From NCBI GenBank assembly GCA_004294005.1, contig RDZP01000005.1, positions 1 through 54,797 of the forward strand: a DNA stretch of 54,797 bases, in the 5' to 3' direction. Both the position numbers and the translations under genes were made by a program. Shown one piece after another: positions 1,255-9,711 of the stretch (position 1 is the first letter of the stretch; every line of letters starts with the position of its first letter). Below the pieces are notes generated by a model. That model had not been told where the DNA came from and did not search any database. It saw only the letters and a program-made list of their open reading frames with translations. Source of the DNA: Cytophagia bacterium. Its GTDB lineage: Bacteria; Bacteroidota; Bacteroidia; Cytophagales; Microscillaceae.

Positions 1255-3513
1255 TTATCGAACATTATTGAAATACATACAAGTAGATTTTAATTCTTTA
1301 AATGTTTTTGTATCTTTTAATTCTTTTTTCAAACGTATAAAACTTTGTCTGTATTTTGGTAAATAAGTAGGTGGTATAAAAAAACCACCTGTTGTTGTTT
1401 CTAAATAATAATTATTTTGTTCGCATTTTGCAGCCATCATCAATGCTTTCGCAGCCATTTCATTATCACCTGTTTTGAGTGCAGCAGTAACACATCTATC
1501 AAAATAATATTTTGCTTTTGACATATCAAAATAAATATTACTTACATATTTATCTTGTTTATTTTGTTTTATCTCTTGTGCCATTGCCAAATCCATTCCA
1601 CTTCTATAATAATCTATTGCTTCCCAGCTATTGCCAAAGTGAGAAGTATTATAATAAACAGTGCCTAATTGCAACAAAAATTCTGCTTGTTCTAAATTAT
1701 TTTTTTCTGTTAATTTTTTTAGATTTACGATTTTTTGAGCAAGTAACATTCTGTTGTATTTTCCTTTTTCAGTTGAATTAGCACAATTTTCATAACAATC
1801 TTTTATGGTTACTAAAAAAGGATCATTTTTTATTTTTTGTAATTTATTCGAAGGAATTGATTGATAAATTTTGATGGCTTCTTCTAATTTATCCTCAGCA
1901 AATAAAAAAGTGGCTTTTATTTCGTTTAAATCGCTTTCAGCATTTTTATCACCTAATTTATCTTTAATAAGCTCTTTTTCCAAAATGGTAGGTTTCTTTT
2001 TTGTTACCATTTCTAATAAATTATTAACTTTTGCCACATCTCCTCTTGTTTTAAGGCTATAAACATCATTTCTCAAAATAAAAGCCTTTCCTACATTTCC
2101 TTTTGTTTCATACAATCTTGAGAAAGCATTTTGTGTAAAGTCAGTTAAATGTTCATTTTTTATTGCTTTTACTTTTGTATAAATTTCCTCTTCTGTATTG
2201 TCATCAATAGATTTTAGTTCCGATATTTGTAAAGCCAACTGAAATACTTCGATTTGATTTTTTAAGTTGTTATCTTTTGTTTTATTGGCAATGTCTTGAT
2301 AAATTGCTTTCGCTTTCGAGGGTTGTCCTGTGATATATTCTAAATATCCACCTGCTAAACGAAATAACTCACTATTTTTCAATTTATTATCAGCAATAGC
2401 ACGTGTTACAATTTTTTTCAAACTTTCTACATTTTTCTTTGCTTGTGTTATTTCTTCTCCTTGATAATTTTTCATAAAAAGTAAATTTTTACTCAAATCA
2501 ATATCTAATAAATCAAATTCTAATTTATTGATTTCACGTGCCAACATATACGACAATTTTTCAGATTTTGGAGCAATATCTAACACATTTTGTATTTCTT
2601 CTAAACCATTTGCTTGTGAATTTAATGAACGAATAAAATACAAAGTTGCTTTTTCATCATTATTTTGGCATAAATCTAATGCTTTTTCCCATTCATTTTG
2701 TTCGTATATTTTGATACTCAAATAAGCACTTGCTTGTTTGCTTGGACACAAATCAAAAATTCTTGAAAATAAATAAATAGATTCTCCTTGCATTCCTTTT
2801 TTATACAATGCACCTGCTTTGTGTGATAAAGCCCAATATTTAATGACAGAAGTAGTGTTATTTTCAATTGGTTTTATCAATTCATCATAAAATCTAACAA
2901 CTTTATCGTATTCTTGTGTATAATGTGCCATTCTGATGGCTTGATAAGCAAAACGCACTTTTAAAAATGGATTAGATGCTTTTTCGTTGTAATATTTTTT
3001 GCCTGCGTCAGTGAGCCATCTCATTTTTTCAAAATCTCTTTTTGGTTTTTCATCAGCCCAAGTGTCATGTTTTGCACTTTGTATTTCGCAAGTTTTTGCA
3101 AAATATAAATAATCTATTGCTTCTAAATCTTTATTTTTTTGCCAAATTTTAATAACATCATTATTTTTGAGTTTTGTATCCAACATTTTACCTTCAGTGA
3201 TATAAGCCCTGATTTTTTGCATATCGTCTGCAGATGCATCATAAATAATTTTTTTTAGGTCTTCATTATTTATCTTACCTCCCAAATAGCTTTTCCAATC
3301 TTCCATATTAGCCGTAAAAGTGCTATCACTTTTCCATTTAAAATTAGACATTTCTGCAAAAGAAATTGGAGTAAAAAAACGATAATTGATAATTTCATTA
3401 GCGTCTCCACCTGCACAAATAGCCAAATAATTTACTTTTTCAGTACGTAACCCAAATGCACTTAAAAGAATTAACAAAAGATAAATTTGAGTAAATTTTA
3501 TTTTTTTCAACAT
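1255..3513 (-). CDS. Large TPR-like envelope protein
   Basis: This 752-aa protein starts with a basic and hydrophobic segment that looks like a signal peptide (residues 1-22), without a clear lipobox. The rest is mostly helical, with regularly spaced aromatic and alanine patterns such as residues about 195-300 and 560-700, as in tetratricopeptide repeats. No catalytic motif is recognised. Its placement directly upstream of batA suggests a shared envelope or stress role, but that is inference from position. A -7-like promoter element lies about 46 bp upstream of the start. Function unknown. Confidence 0.75.
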   Translation of the reverse strand: MLKKIKFTQIYLLLILLSAFGLRTEKVNYLAICAGGDANEIINYRFFTPISFAEMSNFKWKSDSTFTANMEDWKSYLGGKINNEDLKKIIYDASADDMQKIRAYITEGKMLDTKLKNNDVIKIWQKNKDLEAIDYLYFAKTCEIQSAKHDTWADEKPKRDFEKMRWLTDAGKKYYNEKASNPFLKVRFAYQAIRMAHYTQEYDKVVRFYDELIKPIENNTTSVIKYWALSHKAGALYKKGMQGESIYLFSRIFDLCPSKQASAYLSIKIYEQNEWEKALDLCQNNDEKATLYFIRSLNSQANGLEEIQNVLDIAPKSEKLSYMLAREINKLEFDLLDIDLSKNLLFMKNYQGEEITQAKKNVESLKKIVTRAIADNKLKNSELFRLAGGYLEYITGQPSKAKAIYQDIANKTKDNNLKNQIEVFQLALQISELKSIDDNTEEEIYTKVKAIKNEHLTDFTQNAFSRLYETKGNVGKAFILRNDVYSLKTRGDVAKVNNLLEMVTKKKPTILEKELIKDKLGDKNAESDLNEIKATFLFAEDKLEEAIKIYQSIPSNKLQKIKNDPFLVTIKDCYENCANSTEKGKYNRMLLAQKIVNLKKLTEKNNLEQAEFLLQLGTVYYNTSHFGNSWEAIDYYRSGMDLAMAQEIKQNKQDKYVSNIYFDMSKAKYYFDRCVTAALKTGDNEMAAKALMMAAKCEQNNYYLETTTGGFFIPPTYLPKYRQSFIRLKKELKDTKTFKELKSTCMYFNNVR

Positions 3514-3558
3514 TAGATTTATTTTTTTAATTTAATAATAGATATATTTCAATAACCG

Positions 3559-3566
3559 CAAAATTA
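3559..3566 (-). promoter_or_regulatory. -7 element upstream of the 752-aa gene
   Basis: On the minus strand this reads TAATTTTG, matching the Bacteroidota -7 consensus TAnnTTTG. No convincing -33 TTG is seen at the usual distance, so this is a partial match. Confidence 0.4.
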
Positions 3567-3847
3567 GTTATTTATTGTAAAAAAAAGGCATAAAATATAT
3601 TTTTTTCGTTAAAAATAATTATTTTTATTTGAAATTATTTTTGTAGGAAAGGTAACTGAATATACTTAAAATAAAATGATTTTGGAGAAAAATGAAAATT
3701 AGATTATTCAAAAAATTAATATTGAAAGGCTGTGATTTTTGGGAAAATTAGCGTTTTATAACATTATTAAGCCATTAAAACCTATAAAATTTATTATTTG
3801 AGAATAAAATTTTATAGGTTCATAATCAATGTAAATACTATTGAAAA
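3567..3847. other. Non-coding stretch between adk and the 752-aa gene
   Basis: No supportable gene on either strand. It is very AT-rich and holds the -7 element at its left and the 14-bp hairpin near its right end, which probably ends adk transcription. Confidence 0.5.
3779..3820 (-). terminator. Hairpin downstream of adk
   Basis: A perfect 14-bp inverted repeat (AACCTATAAAATTT at 3779-3792, complement at 3807-3820) with a 14-nt loop sits 28 bp past the adk stop. There is no long T tract after it on the minus strand, so it could be a terminator or an mRNA 3'-end stabiliser. Confidence 0.6.
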
Positions 3848-4420
3848 CTAATAACTATCAATTACATTACAAATATTTGTAAAAATAGTATCAATTTCAC
3901 CAATGCCATTAATAGATGCAAATTTTGATTGTGCTTTATAGTGATTGGCAACGGGAGCGGTTTTTGTGTTGTATTCTTCCACTCTTTTTTTCACTAATTC
4001 TTCGTTTTGGTCATCTGCTCTTCCTGATGTTTTTCCTCTTTCCAAAATACGTTTTGTGAGTTCTGTTTCTTCTACTTCTAAGGCAATCATTCCCGCAATT
4101 TTGAGGTGTTTTTGTTCGAGCATCACATCTAACGCTTCTGCTTGTACGACAGTGCGAGGAAATCCGTCAAAAATAAAACCTGCTACTTCCAGATTATTTT
4201 CAATTTTATTGGCGACCATTCCAATCAAAACTTCATCAGGGACTAATTTTCCTGCGTCCATAAAAGTTTTTGCGTCTAATCCTAATTTAGTATTATTAGC
4301 AATTTCAGCCCTCAATAAATCTCCCGTTGAAAGATGTAAAAAACCATATTTTTCTATAATTTTTTCACTTTGAGTACCTTTTCCTGCTCCTGGAGGTCCG
4401 AATAAGACAATATTTTTCAT
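3848..4420 (-). CDS. adk: Adenylate kinase
   Basis: Adenylate kinase interconverts ATP plus AMP with two ADP in the cytoplasm. The 190-aa protein has the P-loop GPPGAGKGT (residues 8-16), the NMP-binding stretch STGDLLRAE, the DGFPRT motif (85-90) and the LID arginines around 128-134. The LID is the short form without zinc cysteines, which fits the short adenylate kinase/UMP-CMP kinase-like type. The open frame extends 26 codons further upstream, but the methionine at 4420 gives the conserved family N terminus MKNIVLFG, so I chose it. It is transcribed away from mtaB's 3' end. Confidence 0.95.
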   Translation of the reverse strand: MKNIVLFGPPGAGKGTQSEKIIEKYGFLHLSTGDLLRAEIANNTKLGLDAKTFMDAGKLVPDEVLIGMVANKIENNLEVAGFIFDGFPRTVVQAEALDVMLEQKHLKIAGMIALEVEETELTKRILERGKTSGRADDQNEELVKKRVEEYNTKTAPVANHYKAQSKFASINGIGEIDTIFTNICNVIDSY

Positions 4421-4593
4421 ATAATCAAAAATGTTTTTATTTATAATGAATAAAAAATGTATAAAGTATTGATATTCAACACTTTGATAAGTAACCAATA
4501 TTTTTAAAGTCTAAAATTAAATATTTTTTTTAGAAATCAAAATATTTTCTATCTTTTTTTTAAATAATAATTATTTTTATTCTCAATACTTTT

Positions 4594-5991
4594 TTAATGC
4601 ACAAAAATTTCTTCTGATTCCTCTACTTCCATCAACATCTCATCATTGATTTTTGATAGACGCAAAGTTTTGAGTTCATTTACCAACATTGCATCATATT
4701 TGGCAGTAACGCGAATATAATTTTCTGTAAATCCTTGCATATTGCCGTTTTCTATATCATTTTCGAACAAAACACTTCTTATCGAATTGATATTTTGTTC
4801 ATAAAAAAATCTTCTTTTTTTATCAGAAAGAATATGCAACATTTTAGACCTTTCGTTGCGTATATGTGCAGGAACGACTGGCTTTATTTTGATTGCTTCT
4901 GTATTTGCTCTTTCAGAATAAGTAAAAACGTGTAAATAAGAAATATCTAAATCGTTTAAAAATTGATAGGTTTCCAAAAAATCTTCTTCTGTTTCATTAG
5001 GAAATCCCACAATTACATCAACACCAATACAACAATCGGGGCGAATTGCTTTGATAGTTGCGATTCTTTCTGCATACAACTCTCTCAAATAACGTCTTTT
5101 CATCAATTTTAAGATTTTATTAGAGCCAGATTGCAATGGAATATGAAAATGAGGTACAAACAAACGAGAATCTCGCAATGTGAAATTGATAATTTCATCA
5201 GTTAAAAGATTGGGTTCGATTGATGAAATTCTGATTCTTTCAATACCTTTCAATTGGTCTAATTCTTTGATTAAATCGATAAATTTATCAACTCTTTTTC
5301 CATTTTGCAGTCCAAAATCACCTGTATTTACGCCTGTCAATACAATTTCTTTTACTTCTGTTTTCGCAATTTCGTTTGCTTTTTCGATAATATTTTTGAT
5401 ACTATCGCTTCTACTTTCGCCTCTTGCTTGCGGAATAGTACAAAAAGTACAACTGTAATCACAGCCATCTTGTACTTTCAAAAAAGTTCGAGTTCTATCA
5501 CCATAAGAATAAGAAGAATGAAATATTTTTGCTTCACTTACATCAGCCACAAAGATTTTTGCTTGTGCAATATCTGTACAAGAGATTTCTTTTGATGATG
5601 TTGAAGTAGTTATTTCACTTTTATTAGTGTCTATTTTTGAGGGAATATTTTTCTCAAAAGTAGGAATTAAATCAAATAATTGGAATTTTTCGGCGGCACC
5701 CAATACTGCATCAACACCTTGAATAGAGGCAATTTCAGTAGGTTTGAGTTGTGCATAACAACCCATTATTGCGATATAAGCGTGAGGAGAAATTTTTTGA
5801 GCTTCCTTTACTAATTTTTTACATTTCTTATCTGCATTTTCGGTTACAGAACAAGTATTGATAATAAAAATATCAGGAGTGTCATAAAAATCTACTTTTT
5901 TAAAACCTTTTTCTATGAATTGTCTTGCTACGGTAGAAGTTTCTGAATAATTTAATTTACAACCTAATGTATAAAACGCAACTTTTTTCAT
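4594..5991 (-). CDS. mtaB: tRNA t6A37 methylthiotransferase MtaB
   Basis: MtaB inserts a methylthio group at C2 of t6A37 in tRNA. The 465-aa protein has the methylthiotransferase N-terminal cysteines C11, C47 and C78 for the auxiliary iron-sulfur cluster. The radical-SAM motif CxxxCxxC is at C177, C181 and C184. A TRAM-like C-terminal segment follows. The linker between the N-terminal domain and the radical-SAM core (about 115-165) is long and rich in Ser, Thr and Lys. The start at 5991 gives MKKVAFYTLGCKLN, the conserved family opening; the longer frame has no support. Its promoter sits inside the 40-bp direct repeat just upstream. Confidence 0.93.
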   Translation of the reverse strand: MKKVAFYTLGCKLNYSETSTVARQFIEKGFKKVDFYDTPDIFIINTCSVTENADKKCKKLVKEAQKISPHAYIAIMGCYAQLKPTEIASIQGVDAVLGAAEKFQLFDLIPTFEKNIPSKIDTNKSEITTSTSSKEISCTDIAQAKIFVADVSEAKIFHSSYSYGDRTRTFLKVQDGCDYSCTFCTIPQARGESRSDSIKNIIEKANEIAKTEVKEIVLTGVNTGDFGLQNGKRVDKFIDLIKELDQLKGIERIRISSIEPNLLTDEIINFTLRDSRLFVPHFHIPLQSGSNKILKLMKRRYLRELYAERIATIKAIRPDCCIGVDVIVGFPNETEEDFLETYQFLNDLDISYLHVFTYSERANTEAIKIKPVVPAHIRNERSKMLHILSDKKRRFFYEQNINSIRSVLFENDIENGNMQGFTENYIRVTAKYDAMLVNELKTLRLSKINDEMLMEVEESEEIFVH

Positions 5992-6010
5992 TTTCAATTT
6001 ATATTTAAAG

Positions 6011-6050
6011 TGCAAAATTAAGTCTAAAAATTGAGAAAGACAATTATATA
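6011..6050. repeat. 40-bp direct repeat, copy 1 (mtaB side)
   Basis: This segment is identical over 40 bp to 7267-7306, in the same orientation. After two mismatches the match continues for eight more bases (GATTTTAA). It contains the complete predicted mtaB promoter. The pair brackets the YhcG-like gene. Confidence 0.9.
6013..6043 (-). promoter_or_regulatory. Predicted mtaB promoter
   Basis: On the minus strand a TTG (-33, 6043-6041) is followed by 20 nt and TAATTTTG (-7, 6020-6013), matching the Bacteroidota TTTG/TAnnTTTG pattern. The mtaB start is about 22 nt downstream. Confidence 0.7.
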
Positions 6051-6100
6051 GTTGATTTTAAATATTGTTTTTTGATTTTTATTCAAAATATCAATCAATA

Positions 6101-7114
6101 TTATCTTTTCTTTTTGGCGGCTTGTTGAAGTTCTTGTGGACTGGGCAAGCTATCTTTCAAGTTTTCAGGAACTTGTTTAGTCAGTTGATAGGAGGCAATT
6201 CCCATAGGTCTATCTAATTTTTGCAAAGCATATTCCACAACGACATCATTTTTAGTTTTGCATAAAAGTAAACCAATCGTAGGGGCATCTTTATTGTCTT
6301 TTACCAAATCATCAACTACTGACTGATAAAAGTTTAGTTTGCCTACATATTCAGGTTTAAAATCATCTACTTTTAATTCAAGCACGACAAAGCATTTGAG
6401 TTTGAAATGATAAAATAGTAAATCAATATAAAAATCTTGTCCGCCTACTTCTATGTGATATTGTTTGCCTACAAATGCAAATCCTTTACCTAACTCGAGT
6501 AAAAATTTGGTCATATTTTGTACCAACTCACCTTCAAGTTCTCGTTCAAATTTGATGTCATTTTGGGCTATAAAGTCAAAAATATATTCATCTTTCAATA
6601 GATTTGTTACCGCTTCAGATTGTTCTAAGGGTAATACAGCGGGAAAATTATTGGGTAATTTACCAAAAACTTTGTGTGCATTTGCTTCTATTTGATGTAC
6701 CATTACATCACGAGTCCAGCCATGTTCGACTACTTTTTGGGCATACCAAATTCGCATCGATTGTTCTTTTATTTTATCAATTAGTGTGATATGATGATAC
6801 CAGCTAATTTGTGCAAGTTTGCCTTGCACAAATGCAAAGTCTTGATATTCAAAGGCAAACTTACGCATATACTTTAAGTTGCGTGTAGAAATGCCTTTCA
6901 GGTCAGGAAATTCGGTTTTCAAATCTTTGGCAAGGTTGTCAATTACTTTTGCGCCCCAGCCTTTGTCATTTTGGCGTGCTAAAATACTTTTGCCTATATC
7001 CCAATACATTTTTATCATCTGAGTATTGACATTTACGATGGCTCTAAGTCGAGCTTGTTGAATGGTAGTTTTGAGTTCTTCAAGCAACTCACTATAGTAC
7101 TTATCTTGGTTCAT
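6101..7114 (-). CDS. YhcG/DUF1016-type PD-(D/E)XK nuclease
   Basis: This 337-aa protein matches the YhcG (DUF1016) family. The N-terminal DUF1016 region (about 1-150) contains the typical YWDIGKSI and GWGAKVIDNLAKDL stretches. The C-terminal nuclease domain keeps the PD-(D/E)XK residues D231, E246 and K248 (in LELK), with Q264 further on. Length is usual for the family. These genes are common accessory genes in restriction-modification and other mobile or defence contexts; the substrate is not established. No methylase or partner lies next to it. It is bracketed by a 40-bp direct repeat, so it looks like a discrete insertion upstream of mtaB. Confidence 0.9.
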   Translation of the reverse strand: MNQDKYYSELLEELKTTIQQARLRAIVNVNTQMIKMYWDIGKSILARQNDKGWGAKVIDNLAKDLKTEFPDLKGISTRNLKYMRKFAFEYQDFAFVQGKLAQISWYHHITLIDKIKEQSMRIWYAQKVVEHGWTRDVMVHQIEANAHKVFGKLPNNFPAVLPLEQSEAVTNLLKDEYIFDFIAQNDIKFERELEGELVQNMTKFLLELGKGFAFVGKQYHIEVGGQDFYIDLLFYHFKLKCFVVLELKVDDFKPEYVGKLNFYQSVVDDLVKDNKDAPTIGLLLCKTKNDVVVEYALQKLDRPMGIASYQLTKQVPENLKDSLPSPQELQQAAKKKR

Positions 7115-7150
7115 TTTCTATTAGATTTATTGTTTTTATTTTTGAAATAC

Positions 7151-7256
7151 TAAGGAACGCTGATAAAATAATTTATAACAGTTTGTAATGATAACTATTT
7201 GATTATCATTTATTTATAATTTTAAAATTTATACTTTATTTAATTACCGTTCCTAA
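7151..7256. repeat. Segment with AGGAACG terminal inverted repeats
   Basis: AGGAACG at 7152-7158 and its complement at 7249-7255 bound about 100 bp of AT-rich sequence with further short palindromic stretches (for example TGATAACTATTTGATTATCA). This is the layout of a small non-autonomous repeat. It lies in the leader of the yhcG-like gene. Confidence 0.4.
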
Positions 7257-7266
7257 ACTTACTATT

Positions 7267-7306
7267 TGCAAAATTAAGTCTAAAAATTGAGAAAGACAAT
7301 TATATA
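7267..7306. repeat. 40-bp direct repeat, copy 2 (distal side)
   Basis: Identical to 6011-6050. The two copies start 1256 bp apart, and the interval holds exactly one gene plus the AGGAACG-bounded segment. Confidence 0.9.
7269..7299 (-). promoter_or_regulatory. Duplicated promoter upstream of yhcG-like gene
   Basis: This is the same TTG, 20 nt, TAATTTTG arrangement as at mtaB, carried by the second direct-repeat copy. It would drive the nuclease gene through a leader of about 150 nt. Confidence 0.55.
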
Positions 7307-7602
7307 CTCGATTTTAATTGCTAATTATAGATTAAAAAGAGTGTAAATAATGTTTTTTCTAATCAAAAAATTAAATATAATTTATTAATTTACTTTCAAA
7401 AATAATTTTTTCTTTTGTAGAAATAAATTTATTTTTTTAATTTTGTATTAAAATATTTTTTTTCTACTATTTTTTTAACTACCTTTGATATACTCAATAG
7501 TCCATTTTTTATCCACTTGTTTTTAAAATATCTAAATTTTTTATTTATTCGTTTACTAAAAAGCATAAAATTAAATATAGAATAAAAACAACCAAAAATA
7601 AT

Positions 7603-8316
7603 ATGAAAAAATATACTTGTGTTGTAGTTGATGATGATGAAATTTGTTTAAGTATTTTAAGCCGATTTATCCAAAAAACTGAAGATTTAGTTTTGGTGCA
7701 TTCTTTTTCGAATGCTATCGATGCTTATCCTATTCTCCAAAAAGAAAATATTGATGTTTTATTTCTTGACGTAGAAATGCCTGAAATGAATGGTTTAGAG
7801 TTGATTCGTGCTTTGCCCGCTTCTCAAATGCAAATTATTTTAACAACAAGCAGAGAAAAATATGCAGTAGAAGCATTTGAATTGGAGGTTAGTGATTATA
7901 TTGTAAAGCCTGTTTTATATCCTCGTTTTTTGAAATCAGTAGAACGCATACGCAAAAAAAACAAAGAATACGAGGAAATGGCTTCTGTACCTAATAATGA
8001 TAATCAATTCTTTTTTGTTCGTTCTAATTATAAAATTGTAAAAATTGACCCAAAAGAAATTTTGTATGTTGAGGCTTTGGCTGATTATGTAATTATTGTT
8101 ACTATCAAAGAAAAGCACATCGTTCACTTTACAATGAAAGGCTTGGAAGAAAAGTTAGTATCTTTCAAAGTTTTTGTACGTGTACACAGGTCTTATATCA
8201 TTAATGTTGATCACCTCAAATCAGTACAAGATATGGGTGTAATGATTGGAGAAAAAGAAATTCCTTTGGGAAGAAGTTATAAACAATCTTTTTTAGAAAG
8301 AGTAGAAACAATATAA
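7603..8316 (+). CDS. LytTR-family response regulator
   Basis: This 237-aa cytoplasmic regulator has a receiver domain (about 4-120) with acidic residues D10-D12, phospho-acceptor D56, the conserved T81 and K102. A LytTR DNA-binding domain follows (about 140-235), with the family signature FVRVHRSYIIN. Such regulators usually pair with a 7TM or 5TM histidine kinase, but none is adjacent, so the partner is probably elsewhere. It is monocistronic, with a terminator right after the stop. Confidence 0.93.
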   Translation: MKKYTCVVVDDDEICLSILSRFIQKTEDLVLVHSFSNAIDAYPILQKENIDVLFLDVEMPEMNGLELIRALPASQMQIILTTSREKYAVEAFELEVSDYIVKPVLYPRFLKSVERIRKKNKEYEEMASVPNNDNQFFFVRSNYKIVKIDPKEILYVEALADYVIIVTIKEKHIVHFTMKGLEEKLVSFKVFVRVHRSYIINVDHLKSVQDMGVMIGEKEIPLGRSYKQSFLERVETI

Positions 8317-8322
8317 TGCAAA

Positions 8323-8353
8323 AAACGCTTGAATTAATTATATTCAAGCGTTT
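8323..8353 (+). terminator. Terminator hairpin after LytTR gene
   Basis: A 12-bp perfect inverted repeat (AAACGCTTGAAT at 8323-8334, complement at 8342-8353) has a 7-nt loop and sits just after the stop. It also faces the minus-strand receptor remnant, so it may act in both directions. Confidence 0.75.
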
Positions 8354-8393
8354 ATCTATTTTATAATCAATACAGATGAAAACTAACTTGTTT

Positions 8394-8505
8394 TTATATC
8401 AATTTCCAGATCAACCTAATACCAAAAGTACGTGCAGGTGCAGGTAAAGGATATAAATCTACCTTATAAGCAGCAGTATGCGATAATTGCTTACTAGTTA
8501 ACAAA
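8394..8505 (-). pseudogene. C-terminal remnant of a TonB-dependent receptor
   Basis: Read on the minus strand, this short frame ends in AYKVDLYPLPAPARTFGIRL followed by IWKLI and a stop at 8396-8394. That is the typical last strand of a TonB-dependent receptor: a P-x-P-x-R-TFG-like turn followed by a C-terminal aromatic beta strand. Only about 35 residues are recognisable. Upstream the frame runs into a 123-bp palindromic element and then meets a stop, and the rest of the receptor is absent. This is a decayed gene whose 5' part has been deleted or replaced. The family call rests on the C-terminal motif alone. Confidence 0.6.
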
Positions 8506-8514
8506 AATAAGGCT

Positions 8515-8637
8515 CTAAGTGATTTTACTTGAAAATACAGATAATCTTGATATTTTTTCGTGCCAAATGGTTTGCAAAACCTTCGCTATGAAGAAAATGG
8601 CATTTTTCAAAAATTGCTATCAAGTAAAATCACTTAG
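8515..8637. repeat. 123-bp element with 18-bp terminal inverted repeats
   Basis: Perfect 18-bp terminal inverted repeats (CTAAGTGATTTTACTTGA at 8515-8532, complement at 8620-8637) enclose 87 bp with no gene. CAAAAATAA occurs on both sides (8502-8510 and 8641-8649), 3-4 bp outside the termini, like a target duplication. The layout resembles a miniature inverted-repeat element. No transposase is present. Confidence 0.65.
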
Positions 8638-8732
8638 CACCAAAAATAAACCAATTTCCAAAGAAAAATAATACATTTTTAAAAAAAATAAGAACAGCAA
8701 TCAAAAAATTAGGAATTTTTATTAAAATTTTA

Positions 8733-8740
8733 TAACTTTG
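8733..8740 (+). promoter_or_regulatory. -7 element for the PorD-like gene
   Basis: TAACTTTG matches the Bacteroidota -7 consensus and lies about 68 bp before the start codon. No clear -33 TTG is seen. Confidence 0.45.
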
Positions 8741-8808
8741 CATTCAATAATTGGGCATTAAAGATTGATTTTTAAATCTTAGATTTATCTTAATTTTTTT
8801 TTATACAT

Positions 8809-9711
8809 ATGAAATACTTATTTTTTTTCCTTCTTTTTTGTTTTTCTATTCAAATCACAGCACAAGAACTGAATTGTACTGTAACGGTTGATGCCACACG
8901 CATTAATACTGCACAAGTATCAGAAAAAGCAATTTTTGTTAATTTGGAGAAAGCAATTCGTCAATTTATGATAGATAGAGAATGGACAAATGACCAATTC
9001 AAAAAAGGAATTGAGCAAATTAATTGCAAAATATTCATTACAGTTACAGAAGCCCCTGCCCAAAATTCATTCAAAGCAACAGCACAAGTACTTTCTTCTC
9101 GCACTATTTATGGTACTAATTATGAAAGTCCATTGCTTAACTTTAATGATAGAAGTTTTAATTTTGATTACGTAGCAGACCAGCCTTTGATTTTTAATGA
9201 TAATAATTTTACGAGTAATCTTACATCAGTGTTGGCTTTTTATGCCTATGCAGTGTTGGCTTTAGATTATGATAGTTTTTCAAAAATGGGTGGAAATCCT
9301 TATATAGAGAAAATGTTTAATGTAACCAATGTAGCACAAGCAAGCGGAGATGAAGGCTGGGCAAGGTCGCAAAATCAAGTGAATCGTTATTGGTTGGCTG
9401 AAAATTTGCAACATCAACAAATGCTTCCTTTTAGGGAAGGTTTGTATGATTATCATAGAAAGGGAATGGATTTATTACTCATAAAACCTGAAGAAGCACG
9501 CAATAATATCATCAAAAGTTTGGAAGCACTCAAAGAAGTGAATCGTTTGAAACCATCTTCTACTTTATTAAATGTTTATTTTGATGCGAAAAATAGAGAA
9601 ATTGTTGATATTTTTAGAGAATCATCTCCTGAAATCAAACAAAAAGTTAGGTTAATTGTAGTTAATTTAGACCCCGCTAATGCAAATAAATATGATGTTT
9701 TATCTAACTAA
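8809..9711 (+). CDS. porD: DUF4835 / PorD-like T9SS-associated protein
   Basis: This 300-aa protein has a signal peptide (residues 1-18, ending before QELNC) and the conserved DUF4835 opening ELNCTVTVDATRIN. It also has the family stretches SRTIYGTNYESPLLNFNDR and DQPLIFNDNNF, and a region rich in Gly, Tyr and Trp around 150-200. DUF4835 proteins are annotated as PorD, a periplasmic or outer-membrane factor of the type IX secretion machinery; the exact role is unclear. No other T9SS core gene is adjacent. An OmpR-type regulator follows 24 bp downstream and may be co-transcribed. The window also encodes a large T9SS substrate. Confidence 0.8.
   Translation: MKYLFFFLLFCFSIQITAQELNCTVTVDATRINTAQVSEKAIFVNLEKAIRQFMIDREWTNDQFKKGIEQINCKIFITVTEAPAQNSFKATAQVLSSRTIYGTNYESPLLNFNDRSFNFDYVADQPLIFNDNNFTSNLTSVLAFYAYAVLALDYDSFSKMGGNPYIEKMFNVTNVAQASGDEGWARSQNQVNRYWLAENLQHQQMLPFREGLYDYHRKGMDLLLIKPEEARNNIIKSLEALKEVNRLKPSSTLLNVYFDAKNREIVDIFRESSPEIKQKVRLIVVNLDPANANKYDVLSN

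Follow-up and report, generated by a model that had tools for sequence, protein, structure and literature searches.

Insertion with long target duplication has been described for restriction-modification (R-M) genes (Nobusato et al. 2000, Gene 259:99; Furuta et al. 2010, NAR 38:2428; both as cited in passages of PMC3031569, PMC1643837 and PMC3874152), the duplicated target being 'in the order of 100 bp' (PMC3874152). The YhcG/DUF1016 family (PF06250 plus PF17761; COG4804; PADLOC candidate PDC-S02) has been described as having a PD-(D/E)XK fold (PMC1189080), and DUF1016 genes have been reported on conjugative elements (PMC4316617). In the literature searched, no published link was found between DUF1016 or YhcG and direct repeats or long target duplications. 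The type of insertion known from R-M genes was reportedly named in 2000, and to our knowledge its mechanism is still open.

In the window, i.e. the whole 54.8-kb stretch of DNA analysed here, a YhcG gene is found between two copies of the promoter of its neighbour mtaB (Table 1). With a probability of about 0.83, the gene was inserted into the mtaB promoter with a long target duplication, some 51 bp being copied to the other side. The evidence comprises the geometry of the repeat, the recognition of the ancestral copy, the intactness of both genes, the clean empty site of a sister insertion and the enrichment of framing repeats around YhcG genes. An insertion duplicating the promoter, such that mtaB keeps its own and the nuclease lies behind the copy, had been proposed in the first-pass annotation, and both the geometry and the comparison with same-genus species agree with it. 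The accompanying remark that no described mobile unit of this form was known does not hold, as R-M genes have been reported to insert with long target duplications. Like these insertions, the YhcG insertion features no transposase, a long and variable duplication, spared neighbours and a cargo of endonuclease type, and its repeat of 51 bp, 49 of them identical, falls in the range of the class (tens to hundreds of bp). Unlike R-M insertions, the mtaB locus hosts a solo YhcG gene without a methyltransferase partner, the repeat is just 51 bp long, the duplicated target is a promoter, and the host order belongs to the Bacteroidota, the host not being a Helicobacter. Direct repeats also surround transposons, insertion sequences and integron cassettes, but YhcG insertions lack transposase or integrase genes and any attC-like shared site, and their repeats are much longer and vary in length from one insertion to the other. 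New are the solo YhcG nuclease as cargo and the recurrence around YhcG genes; the insertion geometry itself was already known.

Table 1. Features of the mtaB locus (positions in the window)
Feature	Position	Strand	Basis
mtaB-like radical SAM methylthiotransferase gene, target gene, intact	4594..5991	-	UPF0004 + Radical_SAM
Target duplication copy 1, native mtaB promoter (TTG-N20-TAATTTTG)	6011..6061	-	aligns with same-genus mtaB promoter and leader to the ATG
Insert proper, 1205 bp, made up of the nuclease gene with its leader (152 nt) and tail (39 nt)	6062..7266	-	interval between repeat copies
YhcG/DUF1016 PD-(D/E)XK nuclease gene (predicted activity), 337 aa, intact	6101..7114	-	domain matches and conserved residues
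Nuclease leader, no promoter motif of its own, hairpin-capable (about 7153-7254)	7115..7266	-	
Target duplication copy 2, duplicated promoter before the nuclease gene	7267..7317	-	mtaB-region similarity ends after TTTTGCA
LytTR response regulator gene, divergent neighbour, outside the insert	7603..8316	+	

The exact 40-bp direct repeat reported earlier (6011-6050 and 7267-7306, spaced 1256 bp from start to start) was found again at the very same positions, and homology extends slightly further, over 51 bp with 49 identical positions and 2 mismatches. The extended pair (6011-6061/7267-7317) is the strongest direct repeat in the window within the spacing range of 200-8000 bp. The pattern TTG-N20-TAATTTTG is the -33/-7 promoter form of Bacteroidetes. 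It occurs on the minus strand in each repeat copy, and the two copies are one complete promoter apiece, as had been annotated. Copies throughout the genome had been named in the first pass as evidence against the insertion, but no third one was found in the genome (2.78 Mb, 79.8% complete) even when 3 mismatches were allowed; the 40-mer is present there in two copies and is not dispersed, which rules out a dispersed promoter repeat. In another genome (G009), one and the same 25-bp part of the mtaB promoter repeat is matched with 92% identity at about 30 places on many contigs, which are perhaps a dispersed promoter-like repeat family of that genome.

The 1256-bp unit holds a single nuclease gene, as first noticed, and this YhcG gene is intact. 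PF06250 and PF17761 cover the protein at essentially full domain lengths, and DUF1016_N and YhcG_C score 142.7 and 206.5 bits against curated cut-offs of 32.8 and 32.5, which assigns it to the family. Residues E190, D231 and K248 are invariant in 127 aligned YhcG homologues; the PD-(D/E)XK catalytic residues are present in the 337-aa protein, and nuclease activity is predicted. Neither a methyltransferase partner nor a transposase or integrase gene was found in the insert, the cargo being one nuclease gene alone and not an R-M gene complex, and no conjugative element was seen at the nuclease locus. No -33/-7 promoter site was found within the 152-nt nuclease leader. The closest homologue of the nuclease, 78% identical (G004), lies in another context, is not flanked by repeats, and shares DNA with the insert solely inside the reading frame, no flanking DNA being in common. 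Nucleases free of flanking repeats had been named in the first pass as evidence against the proposed insertion. One such homologue does exist, but it does not count as refuting, because a mobile gene is expected to be found elsewhere if it inserts. The leader includes a long imperfect palindrome (7153-7254), a 110-bp, 77%-identical relative of which is located downstream of mtaB in a same-genus species (G002:C179:30514-30623). A MITE-like hairpin element with perfect 18-nt arms (8515-8532, 8620-8637) is found at 8505-8645. Both were considered as dispersed mobile repeats and discarded, as each occurs once in the own-genome contigs fetched.

In two species of the same genus (G001 and G002) the mtaB product is 86-87% identical, and no YhcG gene was found within 1.5 kb upstream of mtaB in either. 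The promoter and leader of mtaB in these species (TAATTTTGCACTTTAAA...ATGAAAAAAGTT) can be aligned to the mtaB-proximal copy up to the start codon; the nuclease-proximal copy diverges from the same-genus mtaB region directly after TTTTGCA. Given this match of promoter and leader, the mtaB-proximal copy is the ancestral one and the nuclease-proximal copy its duplicate; the insert spans 6062-7266. As far as these two genomes indicate, one copy of the mtaB promoter was probably present before insertion, though both carry other inserts. Relatives with mtaB and a single repeat copy had been proposed as a check, and the answer is mixed, as G001 and G002 feature the mtaB promoter without the nuclease, but no pristine empty site was found at mtaB, other repeat-flanked inserts lying upstream of the gene in both. 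Repeat-bounded inserts are found upstream of mtaB in all three species of the genus. In G001, the mtaB promoter is repeated four times in a row upstream of mtaB (L179, G001:C24:24000-40000, 2015-7130), the outermost copy including a truncated mtaB start. Two of the copies are located between units of about 815 bp that are arranged in tandem and carry one gene each for a 215-aa protein with no Pfam match. Three tandem copies of the 215-aa gene were counted among the promoter copies, and the same gene is in tandem also at G002:C35 (L199). Older promoter duplications of 70/74 bp in G001 include the mtaB start. In G002, a 1383-bp insert hosting an outer-membrane barrel gene, with a 25-bp exact repeat at its bounds, is located just upstream of the mtaB promoter.

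The search for other YhcG genes framed by duplicates, also suggested in the first pass, was extended to the order. YhcG loci were gathered by homology searches, the sample thus being selected for YhcG, and some of them are on draft MAG contigs. ORFs were called framed if a repeat with a length of 25 bp or more and an identity of at least 90% flanked them tightly, within 450 bp, and the remaining ORFs of 180-480 aa from these loci served as controls; thresholds were fixed after the first cases had been seen, and the order-wide sample was fetched later. In a loose count 24/143 YhcG genes and 9/325 other ORFs are framed (p=2.7e-7). When palindromic repeats and repeats present in more than two copies per locus are dropped (L130, L136, L211, L219, L297, L311 and others), duplicates of neighbouring sequence still frame 15 of the 143 YhcG genes, versus 6/325 neighbouring ORFs (OR 6.2, p=9e-5). 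Restricting the strict count to genes with flanks of at least 600 bp on both sides leaves 12/132 YhcG genes versus 3/239 controls (p=4e-4), and 7 of 4218 random 1-kb intervals are framed. Some framed cases are weaker, for instance the two genes of L334, and L123, where one repeat copy is at a contig end. About 85-90% of the YhcG genes, the closest homologue among them, are unframed. Framed controls include accessory genes found near YhcG (Abi_2, Bro-N, the 197-aa and 215-aa genes) and a methyltransferase gene; YhcG is therefore not the sole cargo. Abi_2 was tried as a further mobile defence-type family and rejected, 1/18 Abi_2 genes of the order being framed. In about 738 kb of contigs from the own genome, a few of which had been chosen for holding YhcG, 6/448 ORFs of 120-600 aa are framed: two YhcG genes, one 197-aa gene behind YhcG, and three ORFs with palindromic or dispersed-looking repeats. 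The 17 framed genes on the YhcG tree are spread over it, requiring 15 changes (mean of 16.3 after shuffling), which suggests repeated independent events or repeated loss of the recognisable signature. Among YhcG loci from outside the order, most of which belong to different orders and classes within the phylum, 1/29 is framed, by 184 bp; the habit may be order-specific, or the sample of 29 loci may be too small.

The duplicated stretch is often the promoter, the 5' end or the 3' end of a neighbouring gene, which stays intact; mtaB similarly is complete and keeps its own promoter, and the neighbours in several other framed cases are intact too. A sister insertion is found in G002:C100, where the 3' end of a HTH gene is duplicated around YhcG, the intact HTH gene lying on one side and rha on the other. 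In the genome under study (G000:C15) HTH is directly followed by rha, providing a clean empty site. When joined, the two flanks of the insertion are 91% identical to this site over 1099 bp straight across the junction, and the target was thus present in a single copy before insertion. At L226 the duplicated piece is the HTH 3' end of an intact neighbour gene. At L215 (G048) the 3' end of a glycosyltransferase gene is duplicated, the upstream gene being intact; G033 was left out as a comparison for this target, its closest homologue being 50% identical. The 3' end of the upstream gene is duplicated at L201 (G033) and L350 (G160), the 5' end of the downstream gene at L228 (G016), and the 5' end of a nuoH-like downstream gene at L327 (G226). 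When the joined flanks of the G160 case were compared to 24 relatives, none was close enough at the DNA level to provide an empty site. The nuclease has the orientation of the gene with the duplicated end in nearly all cases, L327 being the exception. Sequences duplicated in separate insertions are mutually unrelated, and range in length from 25-34 to about 230 bp. Another YhcG gene of the own genome (C159), with one in-frame stop near the start, is framed by a 51-bp exact repeat. At L183 (G000:C206:1-14000, 7694-8398) the 3' end of a YhcG gene is exactly duplicated over 37 bp, and the two copies frame the following gene, which codes for a 197-aa protein with no Pfam match. At L227 (G002:C261:15000-27000, 3400-7310) adjacent Abi_2, Bro-N and YhcG genes are framed separately, by long direct repeats of 50, 58 and 34 bp respectively, two of which overlap; these frames are serial one-gene insertions.

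Likely routes of insertion are a widely staggered break at the target, which would yield a long target duplication once filled in on both sides, or the recombination of a gene-bearing fragment or circle. Because the duplicated target is a promoter, mtaB is spared and the nuclease lies behind a promoter copy. The nuclease would be transcribed from this copy, and the duplication may have persisted because mtaB was spared. YhcG nucleases could in addition be self-spreading single-gene elements, the enzyme cutting with a wide stagger at gene borders and its own gene being joined into the gap, which would at once create the long target duplication and provide a promoter or a read-through transcript; such an active role is rated as unlikely.

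The repeat might alternatively be pre-existing homology, if a fragment already carrying the mtaB promoter beside the nuclease entered by Campbell-like integration or by homology-facilitated illegitimate recombination. The end product would be identical, the two copies already differ at two positions, and the old duplications in G001 fit such a history. This origin is quite improbable, as nuclease homologues elsewhere have no flanking DNA in common with the insert, and many different targets are duplicated around YhcG, so that each donor would need the right local homology. That an integrase provided in trans inserted a one-gene cassette site-specifically, with the repeat as attachment core, is very improbable. 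It would account for a short unit that has the same repeat on either side and is devoid of transposase, and for the repeat-bounded inserts upstream of mtaB throughout the genus, but sequences duplicated in independent insertions are unrelated and variable in length, a third copy of the promoter repeat is absent from the genome, and the insert has no integrase gene; neither a common attachment sequence nor an integrase gene, as expected of integron cassettes, was found. For the same reason the initial proposal of an integration targeted to this very sequence is not supported, other YhcG insertions duplicating unrelated sequences of varying length. That promoters rich in A+T resemble each other by chance, or that the assembly is at fault, is a negligible explanation in spite of the very A+T-rich region, the frequency of the -7 motif in the phylum and the 217-contig draft state of the genome, as the repeat scores 43 and the best repeat among 200 dinucleotide-shuffled versions of positions 4501-9500 scores 17, which effectively refutes chance, and the copies differ at two positions and are each surrounded by unique sequence of their own, unlike what would result from a duplicated contig end.

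The insertion into the mtaB promoter with long target duplication is very probably one of several such events around YhcG genes, and the evidence that the YhcG nuclease family is a repeated passenger, or the agent, of this type of insertion is statistical. The finding bears on the role of a widespread nuclease family with a predicted activity. With genes of about 1 kb, the signature in roughly one tenth of the cases across one order and at least one clean empty site, such a family would be a simple system in which the mechanism of insertion, and the part played by the nuclease, can be tested.
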